The translations under genes were made by a program, and so were the position numbers. From Ornithinimicrobium pekingense DSM 21552 (GTDB taxonomy: Bacteria; Actinomycetota; Actinomycetes; Actinomycetales; Dermatophilaceae), in assembly GCF_000421185.1 (NCBI RefSeq), contig NZ_ATWJ01000011.1:186001-250000 (forward strand): a stretch of 64,000 nucleotides of DNA, written 5' to 3'. Below, one piece after another: positions 1,312 to 62,560 of the stretch (positions are counted from its first letter, which is position 1; every line of letters starts with the position of its first letter). Under the pieces are notes generated by a model. The model ran no database searches, was not told the origin of the DNA, and was given only the letters and a program-made list of their open reading frames with translations.

Positions 1312-3108
1312 GTGCCGCAGGCACCTCCTGCCAGCACCACCCCCACCAGCCACCCGCTGACCCAGCTCTGGGTCAGGTACCGGCAGTACCGCGCACGCGT
1401 GGTGCTGGCGTTCGTGCTGTCCACGGTCCGCAAGGTCATGGACGTCATGCCCGAGCTGCTCATCGGTGCCGCGATCGACGTGGTGGTGCGGGGGTCGGAC
1501 TCGTTCGTCGCCTCCCTCCTGGGCGTCGCCGACCGCCACGAGCAGATCCTGTGGCTGGCGGTCGTCAACGCCGTCGTCTGGGTGCTGGAGTCGACGTTCG
1601 ACTACCTCTCGGCGCTGACCTGGCGCAACCTGGCGCAGCAGGTCGAGCACGACCTGCGGCTGGAGACCTACGGGCACGTGCAGAGCCTCGACATGGCCTG
1701 GCACGAGTCGCGCTCGACGGGCTCGACGCTCGCGGTGGTCAACGACGACGTCAACCAGCTCGAGCGCTTCCTGGACACCGGCGTCGACCGGCTCTGGACG
1801 CTCGCGCTCAACGTCGTGCTGGTCGGCGCGGTCTTCGCGGCGAGCAGCTGGACGCTGACGCTGCTGGCGTTCCTGCCGATCCCGGTGATCATCGTGGGGT
1901 CGCTGTGGTTCCAGCGCCGCCTCGAGCCCAGGTATGCCGTGGTCCGCTCCGCGGTGGCGCGGATCAGCGGGCTCGTCTCCGGCAACCTCGGCGGGATGGC
2001 GACGATCAAGTCCTTCACCGCCGAGGACCGCGAGCTGGAGCGGGTCCGCGAGGCCTCCGACGCCTACCGGCTGGCCAACGCCGACGCGATCCGCGCCTCG
2101 GCAGCGTTCGTCCCGCTGATCCGGATGGCGATCCTGGTGGGCTTCACCATGACGCTGCTGCTCGGCGGCTGGATGGCGCTCGACGGCACCCTGGAGGTCG
2201 GGCTCTACTCCGTGCTCGTCTTCATGACGCAGCGCCTGCTGTGGCCGCTGACCTCGGTCGGCGAGGTCCTCGACCTCTACCAGCGGGCGATGGCCTCGGT
2301 GCGCCGCATCCTCGTGCTGCTCGACGAGCGCCCGCTGACGCTGCCGGGCGACCGCACGATGCCGGCCGTCACGGGGCAGCTGGAGCTTCATGACGTGCGC
2401 GCCGGGTATGCCGACGGGCCGGACGTCCTGCACGACGTCTCGATGGTGGTGCCCGCCGGTGAGGTCCACGCGGTCGTCGGTCCCACGGGGGCGGGCAAGT
2501 CCTCGCTGCTGCGCCTGCTCCTGCGCTTCACCGACCCGCGCGCCGGCCGCGTGCTGCTGGACGGCGTCGACCTGCGCGAGCTGACCTGGGAGGGGCTGCG
2601 CGGCCGGATCGGGTATGTGGCCCAGGACGTCTTCCTCTTCGAGGGCTCGATCGCCGACAACATCGCCTACGGGCGCCCCGGTGCGTCCCGGGAGGAGATC
2701 GTGCGGGCCGCCGAGCAGGCCGAGGCCGCGGAGTTCGTGGCCTCGATGCCGCACGGCTACGACACCCACGTCGGGGAGCGTGGCGTCACGCTCTCGGGAG
2801 GGCAGCGGCAGCGGCTGGCCCTGGCCCGGGCGATCCTGCGCGACCCGGCCGTGCTCATCCTCGACGAGGCGACCTCGGCGGTCGACAACGAGACCGAGGC
2901 CGCGATCCAGCGCTCCCTGACCGAGGTGAGCCAGGGGCGCACGACGGTCATGGTCGCGCACCGGCTCTCGACGGTCCGGCACGCCGACCGCATCTGGGTG
3001 CTCGCGGGCGGACGCGTCGTCGACGCGGGCACGCACGACGAGCTCGTCGGCCGCCCCGGCCCCTACGCCGACCTGTGGGCGGTCCAGACCGGGGTCCTGA
3101 CCGACTGA
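1312..3108 (+). CDS. ABC exporter, fused permease-ATPase
   Basis: A 598-aa half-transporter of the MsbA/LmrA type, probably acting as a homodimer or with an unlinked partner. The N-terminal half holds six membrane helices (first around VVLAFVLSTVRKVMDVMPELLIG) and the C-terminal half an ATPase: Walker A GPTGAGKS near residues 390-397, signature LSGGQRQR near 494, Walker B VLILDEATSAVD and H-loop AHRLS. All catalytic motifs are intact. The GTG at 1312 is selected because it directly follows the DUF3073 stop and family similarity starts soon after; more upstream in-frame sequence is the shadow of DUF3073. The substrate cannot be read from the sequence. Confidence 0.9.
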   Translation: MPQAPPASTTPTSHPLTQLWVRYRQYRARVVLAFVLSTVRKVMDVMPELLIGAAIDVVVRGSDSFVASLLGVADRHEQILWLAVVNAVVWVLESTFDYLSALTWRNLAQQVEHDLRLETYGHVQSLDMAWHESRSTGSTLAVVNDDVNQLERFLDTGVDRLWTLALNVVLVGAVFAASSWTLTLLAFLPIPVIIVGSLWFQRRLEPRYAVVRSAVARISGLVSGNLGGMATIKSFTAEDRELERVREASDAYRLANADAIRASAAFVPLIRMAILVGFTMTLLLGGWMALDGTLEVGLYSVLVFMTQRLLWPLTSVGEVLDLYQRAMASVRRILVLLDERPLTLPGDRTMPAVTGQLELHDVRAGYADGPDVLHDVSMVVPAGEVHAVVGPTGAGKSSLLRLLLRFTDPRAGRVLLDGVDLRELTWEGLRGRIGYVAQDVFLFEGSIADNIAYGRPGASREEIVRAAEQAEAAEFVASMPHGYDTHVGERGVTLSGGQRQRLALARAILRDPAVLILDEATSAVDNETEAAIQRSLTEVSQGRTTVMVAHRLSTVRHADRIWVLAGGRVVDAGTHDELVGRPGPYADLWAVQTGVLTD

Positions 3109-3186
3109 GCTCGAGGCCCCCACCCGGGTGCGCGTGCTCCATACACCTGGCGGCTAGCCTTGGAGGTCGACCAGGGGAAGGACGAC

Positions 3187-3720
3187 ATGGCTCAGCGTGC
3201 CCGCCACGAGGCGAAGTGGACCCACAGCGAGGCGATCGTCAGGGGACGGCCCGGGGGCAACCGGGGATGGTGGACGCTCGGCCTGCTCTTCGCGGTCGTC
3301 GCGGTCGTGGCCACGGTCGCCTACAACCGCTACTGGGACGTGCAGGACGTGACCTTCGAGCTGCGCCGCTGCGAGGCGCCCCTGACGGCGGACTCCACGT
3401 GGCAGGAGGTGCAGGCCGCGGCCTGCGACCCGGCGACCATCGAGGGGGACGAGGTGACGATGTGGCACGAGGGCACCCAGACGCAGGCGGACTCCACCAC
3501 CGGGTCGTCCTGGACCTTCGAGGACATCCGCATCAACACCGTGATCAACGCGATGGAGATGAGGACCGGCACCCCGGCCGAGAGCGTCGTCCTCGCCGAG
3601 CCGGAGAACGAGACGATCCGGCGTGCGCTCACCACGGACTCCGAGCGGGTCCGCTGGTCGGCCAACGTCGGCTCCCAGGGCCCGACGACCTACTGGGTGC
3701 TGGTGACGCCTCAGGACTGA
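3187..3720 (+). CDS. hypothetical single-helix membrane protein
   Basis: A 177-aa protein I do not recognise. A short basic cytoplasmic tail is followed by one membrane helix (WTLGLLFAVVAVVATVAY, ~23-42) and an exterior domain with three cysteines (RRCEAPL, AACDP). The ATG at 3187 is preferred over an upstream in-frame ATG because AGGGGAAGG lies about 6 nt before it. It lies 78 bp after the ABC exporter on the same strand and could belong to that unit, though TAGCCT at 3154 could be its own -10 box. Confidence 0.7.
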   Translation: MAQRARHEAKWTHSEAIVRGRPGGNRGWWTLGLLFAVVAVVATVAYNRYWDVQDVTFELRRCEAPLTADSTWQEVQAAACDPATIEGDEVTMWHEGTQTQADSTTGSSWTFEDIRINTVINAMEMRTGTPAESVVLAEPENETIRRALTTDSERVRWSANVGSQGPTTYWVLVTPQD

Positions 3721-3728
3721 GCACCGCA

Positions 3729-3740
3729 GGGGGCGCCCCC
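3729..3740. other. 12-bp perfect G/C palindrome
   Basis: GGGGGCGCCCCC lies 8 bp after the stop of the unknown membrane protein. It has no loop and no T tract, so its use as a terminator is doubtful. Confidence 0.3.
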
Positions 3741-3778
3741 GTCGGGCCACCGCCTGTCCCGCGACGCGCCTGTGGATA

Positions 3779-3794
3779 TCGAACCTTGGTTCGC
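3779..3794 (+). promoter_or_regulatory. LexA-type SOS box
   Basis: TCGAACCTTGGTTCGC matches the actinobacterial SOS box TCGAAC-N4-GTTCGA at all positions except the last. It lies 76 bp before the GTG of the DUF222/HNH gene, inside its promoter region. Several 13E12-repeat genes of Mycobacterium tuberculosis are known LexA targets, so the pairing is sensible. Confidence 0.8.
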
Positions 3795-3869
3795 ACAGAT
3801 GTACTCGCCTAGGTCTACGACATCGGCACCGGTTGAGGTGTCGGGGAGACAACCCTGGGGGGTGAGGAC

Positions 3870-7224: not shown

Positions 7225-7350
7225 GGACGTCCCCTCGGTCAGGTGCGGGCGTGCCCGACAAGGGTATGCCGTGCCGGGCGCGGCCCTGAGGGTGACGCAG
7301 GGAACATCACCGCGCACCGCCACCCCTGGTGGGCCCATGCGCCCCAGGAG

Positions 7351-8097: not shown

Positions 8098-9684
<1,587 letters not shown>

Positions 9685-11412: not shown

Positions 11413-11781
11413 TCAGGCCAGGGGCAGGTATGCCGTGAGGTCGGCCCGCGTGCCCGAGGCCCGCACCGCGCCGCTCGCCACGGCCTCGGCCCAGCCGGTG
11501 CGCCCGGTCACCAGGCCCAGCCAGGTTTGCGGGTCGGTCTCGACCACGTTGGTCGGCGTGCCGCGGGTGTGCCGCGGTCCCTCGACGCACTGCACCGCCG
11601 CGAAGGGTGGCACCCGCACCTCCACCGACCGGCCCGGGGCGCGCGCCGCGAGCTCCTCGGTGGTGTAGCGCACGGCGGTGGCCAGCGTCGCCCGCGGGAC
11701 GCCGGAGGCCTCCGGCGCGGCACGCCATACCGCCAGGGCCTCCTCCCCCGCCGCGGGGTCGATCCGTCGACGCGGGGGCAC
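11413..11781 (-). CDS. sterol carrier (SCP2-like) family protein
   Basis: A 122-aa protein with the actinobacterial pattern RRRIDPAAGEEALAVWRAAP, ELAARAPGRSVEVRVPPFAAVQCVEGPRHTRGTPTNVVETD. This is a stand-alone SCP2-like fold, related to the C-terminal domain of mycothiol-dependent maleylpyruvate isomerase-like proteins. The GTG start lies 1 nt past the arcA stop, so the two genes are co-translated. A link between a lipid-binding fold and arginine catabolism is not obvious and may be only positional. Confidence 0.8.
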   Translation of the reverse strand: MPPRRRIDPAAGEEALAVWRAAPEASGVPRATLATAVRYTTEELAARAPGRSVEVRVPPFAAVQCVEGPRHTRGTPTNVVETDPQTWLGLVTGRTGWAEAVASGAVRASGTRADLTAYLPLA

Positions 11782-11782: not shown

Positions 11783-13018
11783 TCAGCGCAGCGGGTCGCG
11801 CTCGACCGGGCAGGACATGCAGCGGGGCCCGCCGCGCCCGCGCCCGAGCTCGGAGCCGGAGATCTCCAGCACCTCGACGCCCTCGGAGCGCAGGTAGTCG
11901 TTGGTCACCGTGTTGCGCTCGTAGCCCACGACCACGCCCGGCTCGAGGGCGAGCACGTTGCAGCCGTCGTCCCACTGCTCCCGGGCGGCGGCGCGCGGGT
12001 CCTGGTCGGCCGCCAGGACGCGCAGCTTGGGCACCCCCAGCGCGTGCCCGATCACCTTCATCATGTCCTCGGGCGCGTGCCGCTCGACGACGACGTCGAG
12101 CTCGCCGCCGGCCTCGTCGCCGGCCGTCATGGACCAGGTCGGCAGGTCCGGCAGCCCGAGGTACCGGGTGAACGTCTCCTCGTCGATCATCGTCATCACG
12201 GTGTCGAGGTGCATGACCGCACGCGCCTTGGGCATGTCCAGCGCGATGACGGTCTGCACCTCGCCGCTGCTCAGCAGCGAGCGCGCCAGCCGCTCGACGC
12301 CCGAGGCGGTGGTGCGCTCGGAGAGGCCGACGAGGACCACGCCGCCGCCGAGCACGAGGATGTCGCCGCCCTCGGCCGTCGCCGGCCCGTCGTCGATGCC
12401 CTCGGTCCACCACTGCATCCCGGCGTCGGCGAAGAGCGGGTGGTAGCGGTAGATCGCCGCGTAGTGCACGGTCTCGCGCCGCCGCGCCTTCTTGTGCATC
12501 GCGTTGACGGCCACCCCGCCGTGCACCCAGGCGGAGGTGTCGCGGGTGAACAGGTGGTTGGGCAGCGGGGCGAGGATCGCGTCGTGGGCGTCGAGCTGCT
12601 CGATGGTCAGGGACTGCGGGTGCGGTATGCGGTCGAGCACCTCGGTCTTGGTGATGCCGCCGATGAGGTGCTGGGTGAGCTCGCCGTCGTCCATCCCCTC
12701 GAACATCACGCGCAGCTCCTCGGCGCCGAACGGGCCGACGTGCCGCTCGTCCAGGGAGTGGTCGAGGATGTGCTCCCGGGCCTGCGGGATCGCGAGCGTC
12801 TCGCGCAGGAGCCGGTCGAAGTGGTGCACGGTCACGCCCCGGTCGCGCATGACCTGCACGAAGTGGTCGTGCTCCTGCTGGGCCTTCTCGACCCAGAGAA
12901 TCTCGTCGAAGAGGTACTGCTCCTTGTTGTCCGGCGTCAGCCGGTGCATCTCCAGGCCCGGCCGGTGGACGATCACCTGACGCAGCCGGCCCACCTCGGA
13001 GCCCACGTGGAACGACAT
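11783..13018 (-). CDS. arcA: arginine deiminase
   Basis: Hydrolyses L-arginine to citrulline and ammonia, the entry to the ADI pathway and a source of ATP and acid resistance. The 411-aa protein has the family landmarks: [53 protein letters not shown], and the catalytic Cys in [13 protein letters not shown] near residue 400. The ATG at 13018 follows GGAGGAGTGAGGG. arcB, arcC and an arginine/ornithine antiporter are not in the window, so citrulline use must be encoded elsewhere. Confidence 0.96.
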
Positions 13019-14233: not shown

Positions 14234-16789
14234 CTACGTGGCGCTGACGGCGTCGAGCACGTCGAGCCGCGCAGCGCGTCGGGCCGGGAGGGTGGCCGCG
14301 ACGACCGCGGCGACGACCGCCACCCCGACGTAGAGCGCGAGCCGGCCGGCCGGCACGGACACCGGCAGGTCGATGCCGTCCATCAGCACCGCCGAGACCG
14401 TGCGACCCAGCACCAGGCCGAGCGCGCCGCCCAGGAGGGCGCCGTAGGTCGCCATGAGCACGGCCTCGACCCGCACCATGGAGCGGACCTGCCGCCGGCT
14501 CATCCCGATCGAGCGCAGCATGCCGATCTCGCGGGTCCGCTCGATCACCGACAGGCCGAGGGTGTTGGCCACCCCGAGCAGCGCGACGAGCAGCGAGAGG
14601 CCGAGCAGCGCGCTGATCATCGTGACCGCCTGGTCGACGACGCTGCGGTTGGCCTCGACGAAGCCGTCCATCGTCATGGCCTGCAGCAGCGGGAAGGCGT
14701 CGACCAGGTAGGCGTCCAGCGTCGCCTGCAGCTCCTCGCCGGTGGTGCCCTCCTCGGCGGTCGCGAGCAGGTAGACGTCGGCCGCCTGCGGGGCGATGCC
14801 GGCCAGGTCGGCCGCGGTCACCAGGTAGGTGCCCAGGGCCGGGGTGCCCTCGTAGAGGCCGCTGACCGTCAGCTCCAGGGGCGCCGCACCGGGCACGGTC
14901 ACCGAGACGCTGTCACCGAGGCCGGCCTCGCCCTCGACGGCGAGCACGCGCCCGTCGGCGAGGTCGGCCGTCGAACCCTCCACCATCCGCAGGTGCAGCA
15001 TGTCGTGGGCGAGGGCGGGGTCCATCGCGCTGACCATCTCGGTGGCGGGGGCGGAGGCGCCCACCGCGACGTCGGCCTCGGCGATCTTGACCGCCCCGAC
15101 CTCCTCGACGCCGTCCTGCCCGGCCACGGCGCCGGCGGCCTCGCCGCCGAACGGCATACCGCCCATCGACCAGACCACGACGTCGGCGTCCAGGCTGCCC
15201 TTGATCTCGCTCTCGGCCATGCCGCTCATCGAGGAGCCGATGACCGCGGTCGCCGAGACGAGCGCCACCCCGACCACCAGCGCGGCCGACGTGGCGGCGG
15301 AGCGGTGGGGCGTGCGGATGACGTTGCCCTCGGCCAGGCGGGTGGGGCGGCCGGCCAGCCGGACGAACGGCCGGGCGAGCACGCGGGTGGCCGGTCCGAC
15401 CAGCAGCGGGCCCCAGACGACGGCCGCCAGGACCATGCTCACGGCACCGGCACCGACCAGCGGGGTGGAGACCTCGCGCACCCCGAGCACGGAGGCGGTG
15501 ACCGCGAGGAGCGTCAGGACGGTCGCGACCGTGGCCCTCACCCGGCGGCGGGTCCGCGGGACCGCGGCCTCGCGCATGGCCTGCACCGGCTGCACGGCCG
15601 AGGCTCTGCGTGCCGGCAGCAGCGAGGCGATGACCGTGACCACCGGGCCGAGCACGAGCGCGACGAGCACCGTGCGCAGCTCCAGCGAGACCGTCGTCTC
15701 GGGAAGGCCCAGGCCGAGCCGGCTCAGCAGGGCGACCAGGCCGGTGGCCACGCCCGTACCGGCGGCGAGGCCGACGAGCGAGCCGACCACGCCGATCGTC
15801 GCCGCCTCCGCCACCACACCGCGGACCAGCTGGCCGCGGGAGGCGCCGAGGGCGCGCAGGACGGCCAGCTCGCGGCTGCGCTGCGCGGTGAGCATCGAGA
15901 TGGTGTTGAGGATGAGGAAGCCGGCGACGAAGAGGGTGATGCCGGCGAAGACCAGCAGGAAGGTCGTGATCACCCCGGTCTGCTCCTCGAGCGCGGCCAC
16001 GTTGGCCTCGGTGACCTCCGTGCCGGTGTAGACGGAGGGGGTGACGGCCGCCGCAGCCGCAGCGTCGGTGGCTCCGTCGCCGGCACCGGTGGTGCCGGGG
16101 GCGGCAGCGAGCGCGGCCTCGACCGCGTCGGCGACCTGGGCCTCGGTCAGCCCCTCCTCGCCGCGCACGCGGATCTCGGAGAAGCCGTCGCCGTAGCCCC
16201 AGACCTCGCCCGCGGTGGCCGCCTCGATGCCCAGGACCGAGATGCCCCCGTCACCGAGCTCGGCGAGCCCGACGACGGTGACGTCACGCGCCGGGGCGTG
16301 GGTGATCAGGCGGGTGCTGTCCCCGATCTGCAGCCCGAGCGACTCGGCACTGGCCCGGTCGATCACGACCTCGTCGCGGTGCAGCGGCGCCGACCCCTCG
16401 ACGAGGGTCAGCGGGTTGAGGACGTCGTCCTCGATCCATCCGATGGCGGCGCCGCTGGCGTCGGCGGGGCTGGCGCCCGTGCCGGGGTCGCGCAGCTGGG
16501 CGAAGCCGGTGGTCGTCCCGGCGACGGCGGTGACCCCGTCGACCTCGGCGAGGGCCCCGACGAGGGACGGCGTGAGCGCCCCCGGTGAGGAGCCGTCGGC
16601 GGCCCCGGCCATGACGACCGCGTCGACACCGGCGTTGGCGTTGGCGATGTGGTCGTCGAAGGCGCCGCTGATGCTGTCGCCGAGGGAGAAGCTGGCGGTG
16701 ACGAAGGCGACGCCGAGGACCACCGAGACGGCGGACAGCAGCAGGCGCAGCTTGCGGGCGAGCATGCCCTTGAGGGTGACGGTCAGCAT
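14234..16789 (-). CDS. FtsX/MacB-type ABC transporter permease
   Basis: An 851-aa permease with two FtsX domains. The N-terminus (MLTVTLKGMLARKLRLLLSA, first helix) is followed by a large extracytoplasmic MacB-type domain, three helices around residues 270-400, a middle transmembrane region (~415-500), a second exterior domain and three C-terminal helices with VIERTREIGMLRSIGMSRRQV. Together with the upstream ATPase it forms a mechanotransmission-type ABC system. Such systems act in peptide resistance, lipoprotein handling or envelope stress. The start lies 1 nt past the ATPase stop. A TCS locus next door shares a palindrome with this operon. Confidence 0.92.
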   Translation of the reverse strand: MLTVTLKGMLARKLRLLLSAVSVVLGVAFVTASFSLGDSISGAFDDHIANANAGVDAVVMAGAADGSSPGALTPSLVGALAEVDGVTAVAGTTTGFAQLRDPGTGASPADASGAAIGWIEDDVLNPLTLVEGSAPLHRDEVVIDRASAESLGLQIGDSTRLITHAPARDVTVVGLAELGDGGISVLGIEAATAGEVWGYGDGFSEIRVRGEEGLTEAQVADAVEAALAAAPGTTGAGDGATDAAAAAAVTPSVYTGTEVTEANVAALEEQTGVITTFLLVFAGITLFVAGFLILNTISMLTAQRSRELAVLRALGASRGQLVRGVVAEAATIGVVGSLVGLAAGTGVATGLVALLSRLGLGLPETTVSLELRTVLVALVLGPVVTVIASLLPARRASAVQPVQAMREAAVPRTRRRVRATVATVLTLLAVTASVLGVREVSTPLVGAGAVSMVLAAVVWGPLLVGPATRVLARPFVRLAGRPTRLAEGNVIRTPHRSAATSAALVVGVALVSATAVIGSSMSGMAESEIKGSLDADVVVWSMGGMPFGGEAAGAVAGQDGVEEVGAVKIAEADVAVGASAPATEMVSAMDPALAHDMLHLRMVEGSTADLADGRVLAVEGEAGLGDSVSVTVPGAAPLELTVSGLYEGTPALGTYLVTAADLAGIAPQAADVYLLATAEEGTTGEELQATLDAYLVDAFPLLQAMTMDGFVEANRSVVDQAVTMISALLGLSLLVALLGVANTLGLSVIERTREIGMLRSIGMSRRQVRSMVRVEAVLMATYGALLGGALGLVLGRTVSAVLMDGIDLPVSVPAGRLALYVGVAVVAAVVAATLPARRAARLDVLDAVSAT

Positions 16790-18137: not shown

Positions 18138-19706
18138 TCAGGCTGGCAGCGGCACGCGGGCGACCACGGTGGTGCCCTCCCCGGGCCGGCTGACGACGCT
18201 GAGCGAACCGCCGACCAGCTCGGCCCGCTCGCGCATCGTGCGCTGCCCCTGCCCGACCGACCCGGTCAGGGCCGTGTCGAAGCCGCGGCCGTCGTCGGTG
18301 ACGGACACGACCAGGTCGGTCCCCTCGACCGTGACCGAGAGGGTGGCCGTGCGTGCCGCGGCGTGCTTGACGGTGTTGTGCAGCGCCTCCCCCGCGATGC
18401 GGACCACGTGCTCGACGGTCGCCGCCGGCAGCTCTGCCAGGTCAGCCTCGGGCAGCGCGAGGGCGATGAGCAGGCCGTCGCGGCGCGACACGGTGTCGGC
18501 CAGGTCGCGGACCGCCGCGTCGAGGCGGGTCACCCGGGCGCCGGCCCGCTGCCGCGCCTCGGTGAGCAGCTCGCGCATCTCCCGGGTGGCCTGGCGGGCC
18601 AGGTCGGCCAGGCCGGCGGCGGCGTCCCGGGCCACGTCCGGCTGGTCGCGCGAGAGCGCCAGCTCGACGGCCTGCGCGCGCAGCTGGACCGCGAAGAGCG
18701 CGTGGTTGACCGAGTCGTGCAGCTCGCGGGCGATCCGCTCCCGCTCGAGGGTGGCCGAGGCGTAGGAGACCTCGCTGCGCAGCTGGTCGGTGCTCAGCGC
18801 CAGCTCGCCCTGCTCGACGAGCGACTCCCACAGGGCCGTCTCGGACTCGCTCGGGGCGGTGATCCGGTCCGGCAGGACGACGACGAGCACACCGACGGCC
18901 CGGTCGCCGCGCCGCAGCGGGATCTTCGTGGCGCCCTGCCACGGCATACCGGCGGTGGCCTCGACCCAGGGGCGGGTGGCCTCGTTGGCAGACAGGCGCG
19001 AGCGGTCGTCGTGCAGGAAGCCCCCGCGCCCGTGCAGGAGCAGGGCGCCCGCGGGCAGCTGCTCCAGCCGCACGGCGGAGCGGCGGATGACCTCGGGCAG
19101 CTCGGGCGGGAAGCCGGTCGAGGCGCCGACGCGCAGGTGCCCGTCGGCGTCGGCCAGCAGGATCTGCGCCGCCAGGGCGCGCGTGGCGGCGACCGCCTCC
19201 TCGACGAGGGCCTGCAGGACGTCGTGCGTGCTGCCGCCGCGCGCGAGGCGGACCGCGGGGGCGCCGAGCTCGGCCACCTCCCGCTGCGCACGCCGCAGGT
19301 CGGTCACCTCGTGGAAGATCGCCGGGGCGAGCTCCTGCCCGTCGACCTCGACGACGGTCCCGGACCAGGTCATCAGGGCCTGCGTGCCGTCGTCGCGCAC
19401 GACGGTGTTGGTGTAGAAGCCGGTGTCGCCCTCGCGCTGCTTGTGCTCCAGGGCGAGCAGGGCGACACGCTCGTGCTCGGCGAAGGAGAGCAGGTAGTCG
19501 CGGCCCTCGAGCTCCTCGAGGGAGGCCCCGATGATCCGCTCGCCGGCGGGGTTGAGGTAGGTCCAGGTGTGCTCGTCGCCGGTGACGCAGACCCCGTAGC
19601 CGATCGTCTCGATGATCTCCACCAGCGCGTCCATGCCGAGGTCGCGCAGGACCCGGGCGCCGCGCGACCCGGGATCGTAGGGCTGCGGTGCCCGTTCGTC
19701 CGTCAC
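18138..19706 (-). CDS. sensor histidine kinase, PAS-GAF-HisKA_3 (intact)
   Basis: A 522-aa soluble kinase. A PAS domain (~20-135, GYGVCVTGDEHTWTYLNPAGERIIG) and a GAF-like domain (~145-310) precede the NarX/DesK-type dimerisation helix with phospho-acceptor His ~330 in RELHDSVNH. The ATPase retains the N box (RIAGEALHNTVKHA), DDGRGFD and the glycine-rich GQGQRTMRERAELVGG. No membrane helix is present, so the signal is probably cytosolic or a gas/redox ligand. Transcribed divergently from a second kinase and regulator with a perfect palindrome between. GTG start. Confidence 0.92.
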   Translation of the reverse strand: MTDERAPQPYDPGSRGARVLRDLGMDALVEIIETIGYGVCVTGDEHTWTYLNPAGERIIGASLEELEGRDYLLSFAEHERVALLALEHKQREGDTGFYTNTVVRDDGTQALMTWSGTVVEVDGQELAPAIFHEVTDLRRAQREVAELGAPAVRLARGGSTHDVLQALVEEAVAATRALAAQILLADADGHLRVGASTGFPPELPEVIRRSAVRLEQLPAGALLLHGRGGFLHDDRSRLSANEATRPWVEATAGMPWQGATKIPLRRGDRAVGVLVVVLPDRITAPSESETALWESLVEQGELALSTDQLRSEVSYASATLERERIARELHDSVNHALFAVQLRAQAVELALSRDQPDVARDAAAGLADLARQATREMRELLTEARQRAGARVTRLDAAVRDLADTVSRRDGLLIALALPEADLAELPAATVEHVVRIAGEALHNTVKHAAARTATLSVTVEGTDLVVSVTDDGRGFDTALTGSVGQGQRTMRERAELVGGSLSVVSRPGEGTTVVARVPLPA

Positions 19707-28601: not shown

Positions 28602-28660
28602 CCGTCCTGGCGGTGGTGCTCGTCGTCCTGGTGGGGATCGCCGGCGTGGCGGCGGCCTGA
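28271..28660 (+). CDS. DUF4190-type membrane protein
   Basis: A 129-aa protein with a Pro-rich cytoplasmic N-terminus (~1-46) and two helices (TTVLVLGILSVVVAPVLGPFAWAMG and GMALGVIGTALLVMTVLAVVLVVLVGIAG) flanking a small loop with READ, the DUF4190 pattern. Function unknown. Confidence 0.85.
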   Translation: MHRFEPPPLPGSDRPAPEPTDPWARPPQGYAVAPRAPWGAPASPVHPRGTTVLVLGILSVVVAPVLGPFAWAMGRTALREADAAPAPVSNRSSLQAGMALGVIGTALLVMTVLAVVLVVLVGIAGVAAA

Positions 28661-34482: not shown

Positions 34483-34576
34483 GCCGACACGCCTGCGGGG
34501 GCGACGGCATACCCCGTCCCCTCTGTCACACTGGCACCAGATCCATGACCTCGACCCACCCCGACTGGAGGACTCG

Positions 34577-36573: not shown

Positions 36574-36595
36574 GGGCCTGGGTGCACGGCATACC

Positions 36596-42212: not shown

Positions 42213-42824
42213 ATGCAGCGCATCAAGCACCAGGCCGCCCGCCTGCTGGGCCTGACCGGCAACCTGGCCCTCGTCGTGGTGGCCCTGGCGTGCGCGGCAT
42301 ACCTGCTCCCCCACCTGCTGGGGTACGAGCGCTACGTCATCACCGGCGGCTCGATGTCCGGCTCGATCGAGAAGGGCTCGATCGTCTTCGAGAGGCCGCG
42401 CCCCGTCGAGGAGCTGGCCGTCGGTGACGTCATCACCTACCTGCCGCCCGCCGACAGCGGCGTCGCCAACCTCGTGACCCACCGCATCGTCGAGATCGAG
42501 ACCGACGAGCGCGGCGAGCTGGTGATGCGCACCAAGGGCGACGCCAACGCCGACGTCGACCCGTGGACCTTCAGCCTGGTCGACGACGTGCAGCCGGTCG
42601 TCGAGCACACCGTGCCGAAAGTCGGCTACCTGCTCATCGCGCTGGCCGACCGCGAGGTCCGCATGCTCGTCATCGGCGTCCCGGCTGCGATCATCGCCCT
42701 GCTCGCCCTGGTCGAGCTGACGCGCAACCTCGCCGGCATGTGGGTCGAGCGCGGCACGGGCCGCACCACTCCCCCTGGCCGTCCGGCGCACGCCGGCCGC
42801 ACCCGCGAGCTCACCGCCCCGTAG
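42213..42824 (+). CDS. SipW/ER-type signal peptidase I
   Basis: A 203-aa membrane peptidase. An N-terminal helix (LALVVVALACAAYLLPHLL) is followed by the catalytic Ser in GGSMSGSI and, instead of the bacterial Lys, a His in LVTHRIVEIE with the later Asp in KGDANADVDPW, i.e. the Ser-His-Asp set of SipW and eukaryotic/archaeal enzymes. A second helix (LVIGVPAAIIALLALVEL) precedes a charged tail. It should cleave the signal peptides of the genes on either side. Confidence 0.92.
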   Translation: MQRIKHQAARLLGLTGNLALVVVALACAAYLLPHLLGYERYVITGGSMSGSIEKGSIVFERPRPVEELAVGDVITYLPPADSGVANLVTHRIVEIETDERGELVMRTKGDANADVDPWTFSLVDDVQPVVEHTVPKVGYLLIALADREVRMLVIGVPAAIIALLALVELTRNLAGMWVERGTGRTTPPGRPAHAGRTRELTAP

Positions 42825-51351: not shown

Positions 51352-53184
51352 ATGCACCAGCAGCTGCAGACCACCGGTGGGACCACCCACGCCGAGCTCG
51401 ACGCCTGGGTGAAGGAGGTGGCCGCGCACACGCAGCCCGACGACGTCGTGTGGGTCGACGGGTCCGACGAGCAGATCGCGCAGATCAACGCCCTGCTCGT
51501 CGAGGCGGGCACCTTCACGCCGCTGGCCGACGACAAGAAGCCGGGCAGCTTCCACGCGCTGTCCGACCCCCAGGACGTCGCACGCGTCGAGGACCGCACC
51601 TACATCTGCTCCGCGCAGGAGAAGGACGCCGGTCCGACCAACAACTGGATGGACCCCCAGGAGATGAAGGACCTCCTCCGGCCGCTCTTCGAGGGCTCGA
51701 TGCGCGGCCGCACGATGTACGTCATCCCCTTCGTCATGGGCCACCTGGAGGCCGACGCGCCGAAGTACGGCGTCGAGCTCACCGACTCCGCCTACGTCGT
51801 CGCCTCGATGCGGATCATGGCCCGCATCGGCAGCGACATCCTGGCCAAGATGGAGGACACCCAGGCGCCCTTCGTCAAGGGCCTGCACTCCGTCGGTGCG
51901 CCGCTGGAGCCGGGGCAGGAGGATGTGGCCTGGCCGTGCAACGAGACCAAGTACATCGTGCACTTCCCCGAGGAGCTGGCGATCTGGTCCTACGGCTCCG
52001 GCTACGGCGGCAACGCGCTGCTGGGCAAGAAGTGCTACGCCCTGCGCATCGCCTCGGTCATGGCGCGCGACGAGGGCTGGCTGGCCGAGCACATGCTCAT
52101 CCTCAAGCTCACCAACCCCGAGGGTGAGGTCCACTACGTCGCCGGCGCCTTCCCGTCGGCCTGCGGCAAGACCAACCTGGCGATGATCCAGCCCACGATG
52201 CCCGGCTGGAAGGCCGAGCTCGTCGGCGACGACATCTCCTGGATGCGCTTCGGCGAGGACGGACGCCTGTATGCCGTGAACCCCGAGTTCGGGCTCTTCG
52301 GCGTCGCCCCCGGCACCAGCCGCTCGACCAACCCGGTGGCGATGGAGACCGTCGAGCGCGGCAACTCGATCTTCACCAACGTCGCCCGCACCCCCGACGG
52401 CGACATCTGGTGGGAGGGCATGACCGAGGAGAAGCCGGCCGAGCTGATCGACTGGCACGGCAACCCCTGGACCCCCGACTCCGAGGAGCTCGCGGCCCAC
52501 CCCAACAGCCGCTTCTGCACCCCGATCCGTCAGGTGCCCAACATCGCGCCGGAGTACGACGACCCGCGCGGCGTGCCGATCTCGGCCATCATGTTCGGCG
52601 GCCGGCGCAAGACCACGGTGCCGCTGGTGACCGAGTCGCGCGACTGGCAGCACGGCACCTTCATCGCCTCCACGCTGTCGTCCGAGACGACGGCCGCCGC
52701 CACCGGCGCCGTCGGCGTCGTGCGCCGCGACCCGATGGCGATGCTGCCCTTCATGGGCTACAACGCCAGCCACTACTTCGACCACTGGCTGGAGATCGGC
52801 AAGCAGGCCGACGCCGACAAGCTGCCCAAGGTCTTCCTGGTCAACTGGTTCCGCAAGGGCGATGGGGGCGAGGGCGGCTTCCTGTGGCCGGGCTTCGGCG
52901 AGAACGCCCGCGTGCTCAAGTGGATGGTCGACCGCATCGAGGGTCGTGTCGACGCCCAGGACAGCCCCATCGGCTACCTGCCCCGGCCCGAGGACCTCGA
53001 CGTCGACGGCCTGGACCTGTCCACCGAGGAGGTCGCGGCCGCGCTCGCGTTCGACCGCGCCGAGTGGGAGGCTGAGATCCCGCTCATCAAGGAGTGGTTC
53101 GACACATTTGGCGAGGAGCTGCCCGCGGCGCTGCAGGACGAGCTGGCCACGCTCGAGCAGCGTCTCGCCGGTCAGGAGGTCTAG
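51352..53184 (+). CDS. pckG: phosphoenolpyruvate carboxykinase (GTP)
   Basis: Interconverts oxaloacetate and PEP with GTP, key to gluconeogenesis. 610 aa, standard size. Motifs: [22 protein letters not shown], kinase-1a [12 protein letters not shown], kinase-2 [32 protein letters not shown] and [19 protein letters not shown]. The ATG at 51352 has AAAGGGA upstream; TACGGT near 51288 may be its -10 box. Followed without gap by a small acidic protein gene. Confidence 0.97.
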
Positions 53185-57898: not shown

Positions 57899-60244
57899 AT
57901 GGACGTGGGAGCACTGCAGGTCGTCGCCATCGTCGTCGCGGCACTCGTCACCCTGGCCGCGGTCGCGCTGTTCGTGCGCACGGTCGCGGGCTTCGTGGCC
58001 AGGTTCCGGCTCGGGCAGCCCGAGGCCGGGCGCACCGACGAGCCCGGCACACGGGCGGTGACCCTGCTGCGGGAGTTCCTCGGGCACACCCGGATGGCGC
58101 GCAAACCGGTGGTCGCCGTGGCGCACTGGTTCGTCATGGTCAGCTTCGGCCTGCTCGTCCTGACCCTGGTCACCGCCTACGGCCAGCTCTTCGCGCCCAC
58201 CTTCGCCCTGCCGCTCATCGGCCACTTCGCGCCCTACGAGTGGCTCACCGAGCTGTTCGGCTGGGCCGCGGTCCTGGGCATCCTCGTGCTCATCGTCGTC
58301 CGCCAGGTGCGCCACCCCCGCGGGGAGGGCCGCCGCTCGCGCTTCTGGGGCTCCAGCTTCTGGCAGGCCTACTTCGTCGAGGCGGTCATCCTCGGCGTGG
58401 GCGTCTGCATCGTGCTCCTGCGGGGTATGGAGTACGCGCTCGGCCGGCAGACCGGCGAGAGCTGGGCGACGCTGACGCACTTCCCGCTCACCGCCTGGGT
58501 CGGCGGCCTCTTCTCCGGGATGTCCGTCGGGGCGCTGGAGACCGCGATCGTGCTCGTCGCCCTGCTCAAGATCCTCATCTCGATGGCCTGGATGATCACG
58601 ATCGCCCTGGTGCCGACGATGGGCGTGGCCTGGCACCGCTTCCTGGCCTTCTTCAACATCTACCTCAAGCGCCACCCCGAGGGTCGCACCAGCCTGGGTG
58701 AGCTGCAGCCGATCGCCGTGGACGGCACGCCGGTCGACTTCGAGGACATCGAGGAGCTCGACGAGGACGCCGCCCTGGGCGCCGGCAAGGTCGAGGACTT
58801 CACCTGGAAGGGCCTGCTCGACTTCTCCACCTGCACCGAGTGCGGCCGCTGCCAGGAGCAGTGCCCCGCGTGGAACACCGACAAGCCCCTCTCGCCCAAG
58901 ATGGTCGTGCTCAACCTGCGCAACCACCACCACGCGAAGGCACCGTGGCTGCTGGCCGACAGCGAGCACCGCCAGGCCGCTGCCGAGGCGTTCGCCGCGC
59001 TCGGCGACGGGCCCCGCCCCGACCAGCTGCACGGCATACCCACCTCTGCGGTGGCCGAGGCCCAGCGCGAGCTGGTCGGCGCCACCGAGGGTGACCCGAC
59101 GGTCCCCAGCGGCGGCGCGGTCATCGACCCCGACGTCATCTGGTCGTGCACGACCTGCGGCGCCTGCGTGGAGCAGTGCCCGGTCGACATCGAGCACGTC
59201 GACGAGATCGTCGACATGCGCCGCTACCAGACGCTCATCGAGTCGGCCTTCCCCACCGAGCTGGGCGGGCTGTTCAAGAACCTCGAGAACAAGGGCAACC
59301 CCTGGGGGATGAACGCCCGGCTGCGGATGGACTGGGCCAAGGACCTGCCGTTCGAGATCCCGATGGCCGGTGCCGACGTCGAGGACCTGGGCGAGGTCGA
59401 CTACCTGTTCTGGGTCGGGTGCGCGGGCGCCTTCGAGGACCGCGCCAAGAAGACCACGCGCGCGGTGGCCGAGCTGCTGCACACCGCGGGGGTCTCCTTC
59501 GCGGTGCTCGGCGACGGCGAGACGTGCACCGGCGACCCCGCCCGGCGCGCCGGCAACGAGTTCCTCTTCCAGATGCTGGCGATGCAGAACGTCGAGGTCC
59601 TCAAGGAGGTCAACGCGACCAAGATCGTCGTGACCTGCGCCCACTGCTTCAACACGATCAAGAACGAGTACCCGCAGGTCGGTGGCCAGTTCGAGGTCGT
59701 GCACCACACCCAGCTGCTCAACCGGCTGGTGCGCGAGAAGCGGCTCACCCCGGTGCACCGTCCCGCCGACGCCGACACCACCGGTGTGGCCTCCACCGCC
59801 GAGAGCGTGACCTACCACGACCCGTGCTACCTGGGCCGGCACAACCAGGTCTACGCCCCGCCGCGCGAGCTGCTCGGCGCCCTGCCCGGGGTGGAGATGA
59901 AGGAGATGCCGCGCCACGGCGAGAAGTCCTTCTGCTGCGGCGCCGGCGGCGCGCGCATGTGGATGGAGGAGAAGCTCGGCACCCGCATCAACCTCAACCG
60001 CACCGAGGAGGCGATCGCCACCGGCGCCGACCGGATCGCGATCGGCTGCCCGTTCTGCCGCGTCATGCTCTCCGACGGCCTGACCCAGAAGCAGTCCGAG
60101 GGCGCGCGCGAGGAGATCGAGGTCGTCGACGTCGCGCAGATGCTGCTGGCCGCGGTGCGTCGCGGCCAGGAGGGCGAGGAGGCGCAGGCCACCGAGCCGG
60201 CCCCCGACCCGCAGCCCGAGCCCGACCCGCAGCCCGCCGGCTGA
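57899..60244 (+). CDS. heterodisulfide-reductase-like iron-sulfur membrane protein (IspQ-like)
   Basis: A 781-aa membrane iron-sulfur reductase. N-terminal region with about six helices (~5-265, with His pairs typical of heme b in VAHWFVMVSFG and WHRFLAFF), two 4Fe-4S motifs (CTECGRCQEQCPAW and CTTCGACVEQCPVD), and two CCG domains (WVGCAGAFEDRAKK, HDPCYLGRHN and EKSFCCGAGGARMWMEEKLG). Matches the family of M. tuberculosis Rv0338c, reported to supply electrons to the isoprenoid enzymes. A Pro/Asp/Glu-rich tail closes it. Followed by a long palindrome. Confidence 0.92.
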   Translation: MDVGALQVVAIVVAALVTLAAVALFVRTVAGFVARFRLGQPEAGRTDEPGTRAVTLLREFLGHTRMARKPVVAVAHWFVMVSFGLLVLTLVTAYGQLFAPTFALPLIGHFAPYEWLTELFGWAAVLGILVLIVVRQVRHPRGEGRRSRFWGSSFWQAYFVEAVILGVGVCIVLLRGMEYALGRQTGESWATLTHFPLTAWVGGLFSGMSVGALETAIVLVALLKILISMAWMITIALVPTMGVAWHRFLAFFNIYLKRHPEGRTSLGELQPIAVDGTPVDFEDIEELDEDAALGAGKVEDFTWKGLLDFSTCTECGRCQEQCPAWNTDKPLSPKMVVLNLRNHHHAKAPWLLADSEHRQAAAEAFAALGDGPRPDQLHGIPTSAVAEAQRELVGATEGDPTVPSGGAVIDPDVIWSCTTCGACVEQCPVDIEHVDEIVDMRRYQTLIESAFPTELGGLFKNLENKGNPWGMNARLRMDWAKDLPFEIPMAGADVEDLGEVDYLFWVGCAGAFEDRAKKTTRAVAELLHTAGVSFAVLGDGETCTGDPARRAGNEFLFQMLAMQNVEVLKEVNATKIVVTCAHCFNTIKNEYPQVGGQFEVVHHTQLLNRLVREKRLTPVHRPADADTTGVASTAESVTYHDPCYLGRHNQVYAPPRELLGALPGVEMKEMPRHGEKSFCCGAGGARMWMEEKLGTRINLNRTEEAIATGADRIAIGCPFCRVMLSDGLTQKQSEGAREEIEVVDVAQMLLAAVRRGQEGEEAQATEPAPDPQPEPDPQPAG

Positions 60245-60356: not shown

Positions 60357-60367
60357 CGGCTGCCGGG

Positions 60368-61366
60368 TCAGGGCTCGGCGGTCGCGGCCTCGAGCGCGAC
60401 CGGGGCGAAGTCCTCCCAGTAGGCCTCGCCGCGCAGGTGCATCGCCCACGCGGCGCGCGGGCCGACGTAGCGCAGGTGCCACGGCTCGTAGGCGTAGCCG
60501 GTGACCTCCTCGCCGTCCTCGGGGTAGCGCACGATGAACCCGAAGCGGTGGGCGTGGGCGGCGACCCACCGACCGTCGTCGCTGTCGCCGAAGCAGTCGA
60601 AGCCGCCGCACTCCCCCGTGACGTCGACGGCGAGGCCGAGCTGGTGCTCGCTGTGCCCGGGCTGCGCCGAGACCTGGTCGGCCCGCTCGGCCCCCAGGCG
60701 ACGGACCCAGTCCTCGTGCGTGCCCGCCTGCGTGTCGTGGTCGCGGAAGCCGGAGGTCACGGCCAGGTAGTCGTGGCCCGCGTCACGGGCCTCGTCCAGG
60801 AGCGCGGCGACCTGGGCGACGACCTCCTCGCGCGCCTCGTAGAGGCCGCCGGGCAGGGGTGCGAGGTCGTCCGGGGCGTAGCGCAGCGGACGGACCGCCT
60901 GCTCGCGGGTGACGAGCGCGTAGAGCCGCTCCGGCTCCTGCGCCTCCAGCGTGGTCGGCGGCAGCCCGCCGGCCGGGCCGAGCGGGCCGCACAGCAGACC
61001 GGCGACGGACAGGACCAGACCGCCGAGGGAGCCGTCGGAGACAGGGGACGAGGCGGCCGCGCCGCAGTCGACGGGCCTCGACGGCCCCGACGGGCCGGGG
61101 GTCTCGCTCGCCTCGGTCGCCTCACGGTTGCGCCGGTCGTCCTCCTCGGAGGGGGTGACTGCCACCGGGTCCTCCCCCGCCACCAGACCGGCACCCGCCG
61201 CGACCAACCCGCCGCCCGACGCCACTGGCGCGGGCACGGCATACCCCTGGGGCGTGCCGGAGGCGACGCCGAGGGCGAGCAGGAGCGCGGTGCCCGCCCC
61301 GGCCGCGACCGCCCCGGCCGCGCCGCGGGGGACGCGCTGCTCGGGCGGGGCGGGACCGGGGCGCAT
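60368..61366 (-). CDS. VanY-family D-Ala-D-Ala carboxypeptidase
   Basis: A 332-aa secreted peptidase. The N-terminus has a signal/anchor helix (GAAGAVAAGAGTALLLALGVASG), then a long disordered linker and a hydrophobic patch, then the VanY domain: VTSGFRDHDTQAGTHEDWV, SEHQLGLAVDVTGE (zinc His and Asp), and EPWHLRYVG. It trims the terminal D-Ala of peptidoglycan. The start at 61366 lies 3 nt past the dcd stop, so the two are co-transcribed. Confidence 0.9.
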   Translation of the reverse strand: MRPGPAPPEQRVPRGAAGAVAAGAGTALLLALGVASGTPQGYAVPAPVASGGGLVAAGAGLVAGEDPVAVTPSEEDDRRNREATEASETPGPSGPSRPVDCGAAASSPVSDGSLGGLVLSVAGLLCGPLGPAGGLPPTTLEAQEPERLYALVTREQAVRPLRYAPDDLAPLPGGLYEAREEVVAQVAALLDEARDAGHDYLAVTSGFRDHDTQAGTHEDWVRRLGAERADQVSAQPGHSEHQLGLAVDVTGECGGFDCFGDSDDGRWVAAHAHRFGFIVRYPEDGEEVTGYAYEPWHLRYVGPRAAWAMHLRGEAYWEDFAPVALEAATAEP

Positions 61367-61368
61367 CG

Positions 61369-61950: not shown

Positions 61951-61956
61951 GCAGAC

Positions 61957-61962: not shown

Positions 61963-61975
61963 ACGGTGGGGCGGC

Positions 61976-62005
61976 TTGGAGGCGGTCGACAGGCCGCGTT
62001 AGTAT
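61976..62005 (+). promoter_or_regulatory. tRNA-Gly promoter
   Basis: TTGGAG (61976-61981), 18-bp spacer, TAGTAT (62000-62005); the tRNA begins about 20 nt past the predicted transcript start. Confidence 0.65.
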
Positions 62006-62031
62006 GGCGCTTCGGCCCCGCCGCGGGCCTC

Positions 62032-62102
62032 GCGGGCGTAGTTCAATGGTAGAACATCAGCTTCCCAAGCTGAATACGCGAGTTCGATTCTCGTCGCCCG
62101 CT
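62032..62102 (+). tRNA. tRNA-Gly(CCC)
   Basis: 71 nt, acceptor GCGGGCG/CGCCCGC, anticodon stem TCAGC/GCTGA, loop TTCCCAA giving anticodon CCC. No CCA encoded. Reads GGG. Confidence 0.96.
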
Positions 62103-62112
62103 CGCAGACGAC

Positions 62113-62146
62113 GAAGCCCCCGCCGGGTCCGCCCGGCGGGGGCTTC
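62113..62146. terminator. terminator after tRNA-Gly
   Basis: GAAGCCCCCGCCGGG (62113-62127) pairs with 62132-62146 around TCCG, a 15-bp perfect stem between tRNA-Gly and the convergent cutA. Confidence 0.88.
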
Positions 62147-62170
62147 TCGCGTCCGGTCCCGGCGCGCGGC

Positions 62171-62560
62171 TCAGGCGCCGGCGCGCGGCTCGTCGGGTAT
62201 GCCGTCCGATCCCCTGCGCACCCACGAGGCGTAGGAGGACAGCGCCTGGGTGACCGGCACCGCGATGACCTCGGGCACGTCGTAGCGGTGCTGCGAGACG
62301 ACCGCCTCGGCCAGCTCGGGGAAGGACTGCGCGGTGGTCTTGGCCAGCAGCAGCCACTCCTCGTGGTGCTGCACCTCGTCCTCCCAGGTGTAGAACGACA
62401 TCATCGGCCCGAGGACCTGCACGCAGGCGGCCAGCTGGCGCCCGACGAGGTCGTCGGCGAGCCGGCGGGCCGACTCGGCGTCGGGCACGGCGACGCGGGC
62501 CTCGACCAGCGGCGGCTCGCTCGGTGGCAGGGGCGCGGGCGTGACGGGCAGGGCGGTCAC
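62171..62560 (-). CDS. cutA: CutA-like divalent-cation tolerance protein
   Basis: 129 aa, trimeric PII-like fold: VPDAESARRLADDLVGRQLAACVQVLGPMMSFYTWEDEVQHHEEWLLLAKTT and HRYDVPEVIAVPV. A 20-residue Pro-rich N-terminus is unusual; the GTG at 62560 overlaps the aminotransferase stop by 4 nt. Role in copper tolerance is from E. coli only and not secure. Confidence 0.9.
   Translation of the reverse strand: MTALPVTPAPLPPSEPPLVEARVAVPDAESARRLADDLVGRQLAACVQVLGPMMSFYTWEDEVQHHEEWLLLAKTTAQSFPELAEAVVSQHRYDVPEVIAVPVTQALSSYASWVRRGSDGIPDEPRAGA

Follow-up and report, generated by a model that had tools for sequence, protein, structure and literature searches.

Sequence-specific uptake of DNA guided by genomic tags has been described for Neisseria and the Neisseriaceae and for the Pasteurellaceae (PMC2734928, PMC10526031). 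As set out in PMC3630211, neisserial DNA uptake sequences (DUS) form family-wide dialects that differ by a few bases, are lacking from some relatives, can be present as two dialects in a single genome and reach thousands of copies; the dialect named AT-DUS has the sequence AT-GCCGTCTGAA. Uptake sequences are further described in PMC2346458 as showing no general strand bias, with one orientation favoured in reading frames. For Actinobacteria, PMC4322843 reports that transformation of Micrococcus luteus requires the tad genes (Flp/Tad pilus) and that tad and comEA/comEC often co-occur in the actinobacterial lineage; the term 'uptake sequence' is absent from the main text of that paper and, according to PMC10526031, no uptake sequence has been reported for mycobacterial species. 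Among the titles and abstract openings listed for the open-access literature, none described an uptake sequence for Actinobacteria. That literature yielded no report of transformation for Ornithinimicrobium either, and among the listed open-access papers that contain the literal word, none had, by its title, an over-represented genome word as its topic.

The word described here consists of an 8-bp core with genus-specific flanks; many genomes of a single family contain hundreds to thousands of copies of it, evenly divided between the strands. Such a pattern is the hallmark that DNA uptake sequences (DUS/USS) leave in genomes, suggesting a role in uptake, and the word is probably a DNA-uptake-sequence-like self-tag. 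As far as the neisserial case is described, the two are alike in being short, non-palindromic, family-wide words with dialects, in their copy numbers, and in the existence of word-free relatives and of two-dialect genomes. AT-DUS shares ATGCCGT with the Ornithinimicrobium word and ATGCCGTC with the Terrabacter word; these 7-8 common letters may be due to chance, for which our rough estimate is below 1%. Unlike in Neisseria, the hosts are Gram-positive and of high GC. The CTG core that the neisserial dialects (GCCGTCTGAA-type) have in common is missing from the Ornithinimicrobium consensus GGTATGCCGTG; CTG is contained in GTATGCCGCTG, the extension found in Intrasporangium and in genome G015. 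The USS of the Pasteurellaceae has the core AAGTGCGGT and an extended consensus beyond it, as some genera have here, whereas its word is unrelated and its phylum and envelope are different. HIP1 of cyanobacteria is likewise a clade-wide, very abundant short word, yet it is a palindrome, whereas the present word is non-palindromic and has dialects. With M. luteus the likeness lies in actinobacterial competence; its family is presumably among the 19 other families surveyed, in none of which the word is enriched.

Copies in the window and along the chromosome

The window is the whole 64-kb stretch of Ornithinimicrobium DNA that was analysed. An earlier note on this DNA had counted 16 copies of the 9-mer GGTATGCCG, eight on each strand, where fewer than one was predicted. 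Our exact count on both strands returned the same 16 copies at the same places, while dinucleotide-shuffled versions of the window held 0.26 ± 0.52 copies (maximum 2 in 100 shuffles) and a second-order Markov model gave 0.42. By our own gene calls, seven copies are sense, six antisense and three intergenic, those in genes together occupying all three frames, consistent with the description in that note of copies in genes of both orientations, in several frames and between genes. The sense copies lie at 1931..1939 and 2405..2413 (both +, in predicted gene 1312-3108, +), 15152..15160 (-, in gene 14234-16789, -, permease-like with family matches below curated cut-offs), 18942..18950 (-, predicted gene 18138-19706, -), 28356..28364 (+, predicted gene 28271-28660, +), 34190..34198 (+, predicted gene 33325-34482, +) and 61237..61245 (-, predicted gene 60368-61366, -). 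Antisense copies are found at 11427..11435 (+, low-scoring predicted gene 11413-11781, -), 36204..36212 (+, predicted gene 35935-36561, -), 39762..39770 (-, predicted gene 39071-40033, +), 42295..42303 (-, predicted gene 42213-42824, +), 59032..59040 (-, gene 57899-60244, +, Fe-S oxidoreductase-like with family matches below curated cut-offs) and 62196..62204 (+, predicted gene 62171-62560, -). The intergenic copies are at 7263..7271 (+), 34505..34513 (-) and 36587..36595 (-), the last flanked by divergent predicted genes.

Twelve of the 16 copies extend to GGTATGCCGT, the same number as reported before, and nine to GGTATGCCGTG. The conserved core is the 8-mer GTATGCCG, with 18 occurrences in the window; those at 9078..9085 (-) and 52269..52276 (+) lack the leading G. 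A minor form, GGTATGCGG, has seven copies (12624..12632 on the plus strand, and 17946+, 24904+, 32540-, 47013-, 49714- and 53482-), and GGTATGCGGTG occurs five times against 0.03 expected.

The enrichment is not confined to the window, since the genome to which it belongs holds 793 copies of GGTATGCCG (386:407 by strand) compared with 5 of the reversed word. We ranked 9-mers in a 520-kb sample of the complete genome of a congener (G119), where GGTATGCCG is the most over-represented, with 203 copies against 7.7 under a third-order Markov model; every one of the top 14 over-represented 9-mers listed overlaps the word. The outcomes that the earlier note had named as speaking against its claim were not those observed: the enrichment is genome-wide and not limited to the window, and the count is far from the Markov expectation, which was calculated for the 520-kb sample of the congener.

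The strand balance bears on the polar elements with which such a word could be confused. Strand totals over the 84 word-rich genomes defined below are 83,343:83,505, and the orientation of core sites relative to the replichores of the congener is 157:134 (p = 0.2), showing no bias. KOPS, the FtsK/SpoIIIE translocation polarity elements, are strongly skewed by replichore. A KOPS-like role would agree with an 8-mer over-represented chromosome-wide, yet these strand counts refute it in practice. Chi sites, usually polar as well, resemble the word in being short, non-palindromic and highly over-represented, and the genome of the window does have RecC, one component that a Chi-like recombination hotspot acting with RecBCD, AddAB or AdnAB could involve. 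The equal strands and the absence of replichore bias speak against this reading; for RecBCD, so does the distribution of RecC matches, which do not follow the word (26 of 84 rich against 35 of 65 poor genomes). Altogether, we consider a Chi-like role improbable. Among the functions that the earlier note had put forward, the uptake sequence is favoured, while the polar segregation element and Chi are disfavoured by the lack of strand and replichore bias.

Its proposal that the word acts at the level of DNA and not of peptides was borne out by synonymous-codon shuffling. In 475 predicted genes of the congener we found 153 sense sites against 10.1, and 83 antisense sites against 2.8, under 60 shuffles. 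This in-gene preference for one orientation, together with the overall strand balance, is a likeness to the Pasteurellaceae USS as it is described. A by-product of codon usage or of a common peptide would find some support in the commonest frame, xxG-TAT-GCC-Gxx (Tyr-Ala), which accounts for 133 of the 241 genic core sites, and in the Tyr-Ala dipeptide itself (446 against 357 expected). However, the word employs rare codons, 133 of 365 TAT and 22 of 45 ATA codons in these genes falling in the core, and shuffling leaves only about 10 sense and 3 antisense sites, so that this explanation is already refuted.

The strongest of the rival explanations is that the word is the binding site of a non-polar nucleoid-associated or chromosome-organising protein, spread along the chromosome. 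Such a site would be consistent with the dispersal, the strand balance, the roughly random spacing of sites in the congener (CV 1.07) and the presence of the word both within and between genes. Against it, enrichment between genes is slight, 50 of 291 core sites of the congener being intergenic where about 13% of the DNA is non-coding. Further evidence on this reading comes from the comparison of genomes described below, and overall we regard it as unlikely. The 20 segments of the congener with a GC content below 69% contained 9 sites against about 28 expected from the mean, in agreement with a word that is rare in recently acquired DNA as far as GC serves as a proxy for foreign origin; phage portal genes, found in 7 of 149 family genomes, were too rare for a test of prophage depletion.

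Dialects and conservation across the family

The comparison with relatives extended the enrichment to 84 of 149 family genomes and 30 of 53 genera, a genome being called rich when it has at least 340 copies of GTATGCCG, a threshold of our choosing. None of the 229 genomes of the 19 other families exceeded 177 copies. The flanks of the core differ by genus, and some genera in which GTATGCCG is not enriched carry a related word instead, GGATGCCG or CGATGCGG. Tentatively, GTACGCCG is a further alternative in some GTATGCCG-poor genera. The GTACGCCG/GTACGGCG words exceed synonymous shuffling by no more than about 4-5 fold, and G069 has unrelated words, CGAGCAGC among them, that outrank GTACGGCG; we call them tentative because codon-context effects could explain them.

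The word GGATGCCG reaches 3,619-4,480 copies in genera g17 and g27 and in two genomes of g45, where GTATGCCG has 40-361. Two other g45 genomes combine about 1,200 copies of GTATGCCG with 2,100-2,200 of GGATGCCG. Given these reciprocal counts, g45 looks as if it were caught midway in a switch between dialects. Under the nucleoid-protein reading, thousands of places would have to change together at each such switch (g17, g27, g45), which argues against it, as do seven word-poor family genomes in which no comparable alternative word was found in 80-kb samples, a result that counts against the self-tag too. The 80-kb samples came from 18 family genomes with low counts of the 9-mer, including G015, which is rich in the 8-mer, and were drawn from outside g7, g17, g21, g29, g37, g45, g46, g48 and G125 of g36. 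In G014, no strong word was found against the Markov model. On a ComEC tree, four of the five deep branches include GTATGCCG, with the other words sitting among GTATGCCG lineages; g17 is the sister of g27, and g38 of g39. Clear clustering of the GTATGCCG label was not seen on this tree (11 changes, with 49 of 500 shuffles as low).

We also followed individual sites between genomes. The core survives better than comparable words do in most diverged pairs: taken together, eight pairs below 85% identity retained it at 34 of the 66 positions aligned, compared with 40 of 234 for control words. Four diverged pairs had at least ten sites, and two of these were not clearly above control, namely the window and L002 (4 of 11 against 18 of 43) and L006 and L009 (2 of 10 against 6 of 35), and three close Terrabacter pairs were hardly above it (42 of 63 against 148 of 252). 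These alignments bear on the possibility that a small mobile repeat (MITE/REP-like) left the word behind, as its remnant or as its end. In favour of a repeat, the conserved stretch in Intrasporangium and G015 extends over about 25 bp, in part as inverted pairs. In the congener, however, the conserved stretch around sites is merely about 10 bp, most sites lie within genes and in all frames, and in nine of eleven locus pairs 74 positions were conserved and 26 differed by substitution only, against 18 with a gap nearby; we consider this origin highly improbable.

One-mismatch neighbours of the core are 1.9-fold enriched overall, which speaks for the self-tag, although degenerate recognition would give this pattern as well: the excess falls mainly at the last three core positions, while at positions 2-3 three neighbours do not exceed expectation. 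One neighbour, GTATGCTG, is depleted (1 against 7.8 expected). This last observation would suit a word targeted by a DNA methyltransferase or restriction system and over-represented epigenetically or by mismatch-repair bias, and a non-palindromic 8-mer has a size that some modification systems use. Modification systems usually vary between strains, whereas the core is common to 30 genera, and a repair bias would deplete precursor words, opposite to the enrichment of neighbours seen here. A methylation target has little probability, about that of a Chi-like element.

Putative uptake machinery and the proposed self-tag

Genes for a putative uptake machine are present in nearly all the family genomes, with matches to ComEC in 145 of 149, to ComEA in 144 (75 of them over the curated cut-off) and to T2SSF in 146. 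All three are also found in word-poor genera; being nearly universal, they do not tell rich genomes from poor ones. The four genomes without ComEC are all word-rich and are fragmented assemblies (330-760 contigs). Seventeen genomes have at most two T2SSF matches; 13 of them are word-poor, and the four rich ones are incomplete assemblies (73-84%); we set aside a low T2SSF count as a correlate of word-poverty, as it is phylogenetically confounded. PilM (PilM_2), used as the marker of neisserial-type T4aP, was detected in 5 of the 149 genomes and is absent from that of the window; its lack in the other 144 is a further difference from the neisserial systems.

Based on these genomic patterns, we propose that competent members of the family would take up free DNA via Tad-type pili and ComEA/ComEC, and that a DNA-binding part of this machine, perhaps a Tad minor pilin or ComEA itself, would prefer DNA bearing the word. 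DNA of relatives would then be preferentially taken up and repeatedly recombined, which would drive the word up chromosome-wide and hold it there. If the preference of the receptor shifted, the words of a genome would turn over to a new dialect.

In its full form, which we favour by a narrower measure than the self-tag as such, the proposal is that the Dermatophilaceae/Intrasporangiaceae, Gram-positive and mostly without neisserial-type T4aP genes, would have an ancient, independently evolved sequence-specific uptake, probably through Tad pili and ComEA, with dialect barriers between genera; its word would have converged on 7-8 letters of the neisserial DUS, and g45 would be switching dialect. 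The family includes phosphorus accumulators of wastewater, as described in PMC9123174. If true, this would be a third, Gram-positive case of tagged uptake, meaning that the trait has evolved repeatedly and does not depend on T4aP and ComP. The family would then offer a natural experiment on the gain, switch and loss of a genome-wide word, and on whether uptake bias alone drives it. The word would also predict which environmental Actinobacteria are naturally transformable, and by what DNA.

Abundance and DNA-level nature of the word

A recount of the 9-mer GGTATGCCG found 16 copies in the window, eight on each strand, against a mean of 0.26 in 100 dinucleotide shuffles and 0.42 under a second-order Markov model. 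The number, positions and strand balance recorded in an earlier note thus stand, as do its estimate of less than one expected copy and the extension of 12 of the 16 copies to GGTATGCCGT. Without its first G the core occurs 18 times, and a minor form, GGTATGCGGTG, is present five times (0.03 expected). The predicted genes of the window carry 9 sense and 6 antisense sites, compared with 0.38 and 0.13 in synonymous shuffles. Enrichment extends beyond the window, since the whole genome (3.85 Mb) contains 793 copies (386:407 by strand) and only 5 of the reversed word.

The complete genome of a congener, G119 (3,475,711 bp, 1,323 copies), was sampled as 26 stretches of 20 kb. The k-mer count proposed earlier ranked the 9-mer first in this sample, with 203 copies where a third-order Markov model predicts 7.7, and each of the 14 top-listed 9-mers overlaps GGTATGCCG. 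Around TATGC, the preceding base is G in 91%, the next C in 78% and the following one G in 67% of cases, and conservation drops off within a few bases on both sides of the word. One-mismatch neighbours of the core, GTATGCCG, are jointly enriched (518 versus 267 expected), mainly at its last three positions; one neighbour, GTATGCTG, is depleted (1 versus 7.8).

With genes called by our own self-trained caller, which assigned 87% of the DNA to coding sequence, 50 of 291 core sites in the sample were intergenic. The 475 predicted genes contain the core 153 times in sense and 83 times in antisense, while 60 synonymous shuffles averaged 10.1 and 2.8 (at most 19 and 9), which rules out a peptide or codon effect as the cause. 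The core accommodates 133 of the 365 TAT and 22 of the 45 ATA codons of these genes, and its sense surplus is an effect of the tolerated frame xxG-TAT-GCC-Gxx. As the observed counts far exceed both Markov and synonymous-shuffle expectations, it is a DNA-level word, as the earlier note had proposed.

Restriction to the family and strand balance

The protein encoded at 57899-60244 has its nearest named relatives in Ornithinimicrobium (O. cerasi, 86% identity; another species, 80%), and further named relative loci include Terrabacter, Phycicoccus, Pedococcus, Knoellia, Intrasporangium and Janibacter; from these names we took the family to be Dermatophilaceae/Intrasporangiaceae, and the window to come from Ornithinimicrobium or a close neighbour of that genus. 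One relative locus, L001, comes from an Acidobacteria MAG according to its label; its protein is 92% identical to that of the window, the word occurs there twice, and the scaffold was probably misbinned and belongs to Ornithinimicrobium.

Core counts were made in 149 genomes of the family, including the window's own, evenly drawn from a larger group. Genomes with at least 340 copies and at least 2.5 times the reversed-word control were called rich, a threshold of our choice that falls in the low tail (288-404 copies) below a bulk of at least 625. By this measure, 84 genomes qualify, spread over 30 of 53 genera, and their median ratio to the control is 10. In an order-level sample of 248 genomes, 11 of the 19 family members were rich, and none of the 229 genomes from 19 other families exceeded 177 copies (the 177-copy genome has a control of 135); a few of these had low counts reaching about 3.6 times the control, such as 36 versus 10.

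Over the 84 rich genomes, strand totals are 83,343 forward and 83,505 reverse, in agreement with the lack of strand bias noted before. Orientation relative to the replichores of G119 was likewise unbiased (157 versus 134, p = 0.2) when the chromosome was split in the middle, assuming position 1 near the origin, with a similar outcome for alternative splits, and site spacing is nearly random (CV 1.07).

Dialects and conservation of sites

The flanks are genus-specific: GGTATGCCGTG in Ornithinimicrobium, CGTATGCCGTC in Terrabacter, GTATGCCGT in Knoellia and CGTATGCCGCT in three of four Intrasporangium loci; the remaining one, L012 (I. flavum, 19 kb), has no GTATGCCG. Intrasporangium and the genome G015 share a longer consensus, approximately CGTATGCCGCTGgGCTcG, with some sites as inverted pairs. 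In loci L151-L154 (G015), L008, L013 and L020, this extended consensus covers some 25 bp on the downstream side of the core, some inverted pairs are closely spaced, and a GC pair sits roughly one helical turn away from the centre of the core.

A de novo search of 80-kb samples from 9-mer-poor genomes, against Markov models and synonymous shuffles, yielded alternative words, with both strands mixed in those examined: GGATGCCG in G026 (61 versus 12.4, coding DNA), CGATGCGG in G057 (82 versus 16.9) and CGAAGGGG in G037 (46 versus 8.8) and G126 (26 versus 4.9). Weaker words were GTACGCCG (G040, 43 versus 9.2; G023, 57 versus 13.4) and GTACGGCG in G069 (36 versus 9.6), where unrelated words rank higher; the top words of G024, CGTACGCC and CGTACGTC, were weaker still. 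The same search found no comparable word in G058, G090, G049, G084, G083, G088 and G041, nor in two other-family genomes, G197 (80 kb) and G155 (40 kb). The form CGAAGGGG(G), found in genera g38 and g39 (G037, L187-L190; G126, L127-L130) and in named Janibacter loci, is strand-mixed and intergenic in 23 of 69 (G037) and 11 of 32 (G126) copies; another dialect, unrelated to the rest, and a repeat of terminator type are both candidate readings of it.

A count of GGATGCCG across all 149 family genomes revealed reciprocal abundances. Genus g27 has 3,949 copies of GGATGCCG and 40 of GTATGCCG, and g17 has 3,816 and 3,838 against 235 and 272. Within g45, G103 and G118 carry 4,480 and 3,619 copies of GGATGCCG with 361 and 288 of GTATGCCG, and G044 and G079 carry 2,195 and 2,099 with 1,217 and 1,189. 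In all other genomes the counts of this word, which is richer in GC, lie at 241-1,336, in many of them at 2-3 times the reversed control (highest G001, 1,336; G136, 1,239; G134, 1,210). The g45 counts are what a change of dialect still in progress would leave; S. muelleri, of the neisserial family, is described as carrying two dialects together (PMC3630211). The best rival explanation, a polarity-free architectural site for a nucleoid protein, accounts for the dispersion of the word but does not easily explain its wholesale replacement within one genus.

A tree built from the single gene ComEC in 40 genomes (rooted at its midpoint, with a short search; support of 95 is reached on only 13 of 37 inner branches) has GTATGCCG on four of its five deep branches, the fifth being the word-poor pair g10 and g15 at the midpoint root; a four-genome subclade (g3, g7, g14, g42) is without it. 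Alternative words are nested within GTATGCCG lineages, and the genera sharing GGATGCCG (g17, labelled poor in this tree despite that word, and g27) or CGAAGGGG (g38 and g39) are sisters, each with SH-aLRT 99. Against this picture, 11 changes are required to place GTATGCCG on the tree, a number no higher in 49 of 500 shuffles, so its carriers are not clearly clustered. This one-gene tree is suggestive, no more, of an ancestral word later changed and lost.

Conservation of sites was assessed in 11 locus pairs, all around one gene and non-independent, with shared sites counted from both sides and control words matched in A+T pattern. In the eight pairs below 85% identity, 34 of 66 aligned positions retained the core unchanged, compared with 40 of 234 for control words. 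No clear excess was seen between the window and locus L002 (4/11 versus 18/43) or between L006 and L009 (2/10 versus 6/35), the single site compared between the window and L003 was not conserved, and three close Terrabacter pairs showed little excess (42/63 versus 148/252). Leaving aside window-L003 and L006-L009, nine pairs have 74 positions conserved, 26 with substitution only and 18 with a gap nearby. Windows of G119 below 69% GC are poorer in sites (9 in 20 windows; overall mean 1.40 over 208 windows), although the word is more A+T-rich than the genome.

Uptake machinery and a possible origin of the pattern

ComEC matches are present in 145 and ComEA matches in 144 (75 above the curated cut-off) of the 149 family genomes, and in the window's genome the two lie less than 1 kb apart on contig 15. 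T2SSF matches, a family covering Tad assembly proteins and others, occur in 146, and we infer that they are Tad genes; transformation of Micrococcus luteus is described as Tad-dependent (PMC4322843). Among 17 genomes with at most two T2SSF matches, 13 are word-poor and the other four are rich but incomplete assemblies; a second Tad locus is possibly relevant to the word. RecC matches were found in 61 genomes (58 above cut-off), 26 of the 84 rich and 35 of the 65 poor.

The word, with its abundance, family restriction, strand balance, dialects and partial conservation, forms a pattern that would work, by analogy, like the uptake sequences of Neisseriaceae (DUS) and Pasteurellaceae (USS). Membership in the latter was rejected, as was membership in the neisserial DUS: the Ornithinimicrobium word lacks the CTG core, and the pilus marker PilM is found in 5 of the 149 genomes, with no match in the window's own. 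ATGCCGT/ATGCCGTC of the AT-DUS overlaps with family words, with no homology claimed; the Terrabacter consensus (L005, L007, L010) contains ATGCCGTC, the same 8 bases with which the neisserial AT-DUS begins. In the open-access literature, surveyed mostly at the level of titles and abstracts, we found no uptake sequence reported for Actinobacteria, and according to PMC10526031 mycobacterial species have no reported one.

We propose that word-bearing DNA may be preferentially taken up through Tad, ComEA and ComEC, and that recombination of this preferred incoming DNA would let the word accumulate in the genome. Such preferential uptake with recombination would be a single cause for the lack of polarity, the confinement to one family, the reciprocal counts of the dialects and the sparser sites in atypical DNA. 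Within genus g26, G069 has 19 core copies against 1,062 in G025 and 3,681 in G096, and within g36, G125 has 37 against 1,251-1,660 in G035, G073, G099 and G116; these internal contrasts are suited to tracing what co-varies with the word.
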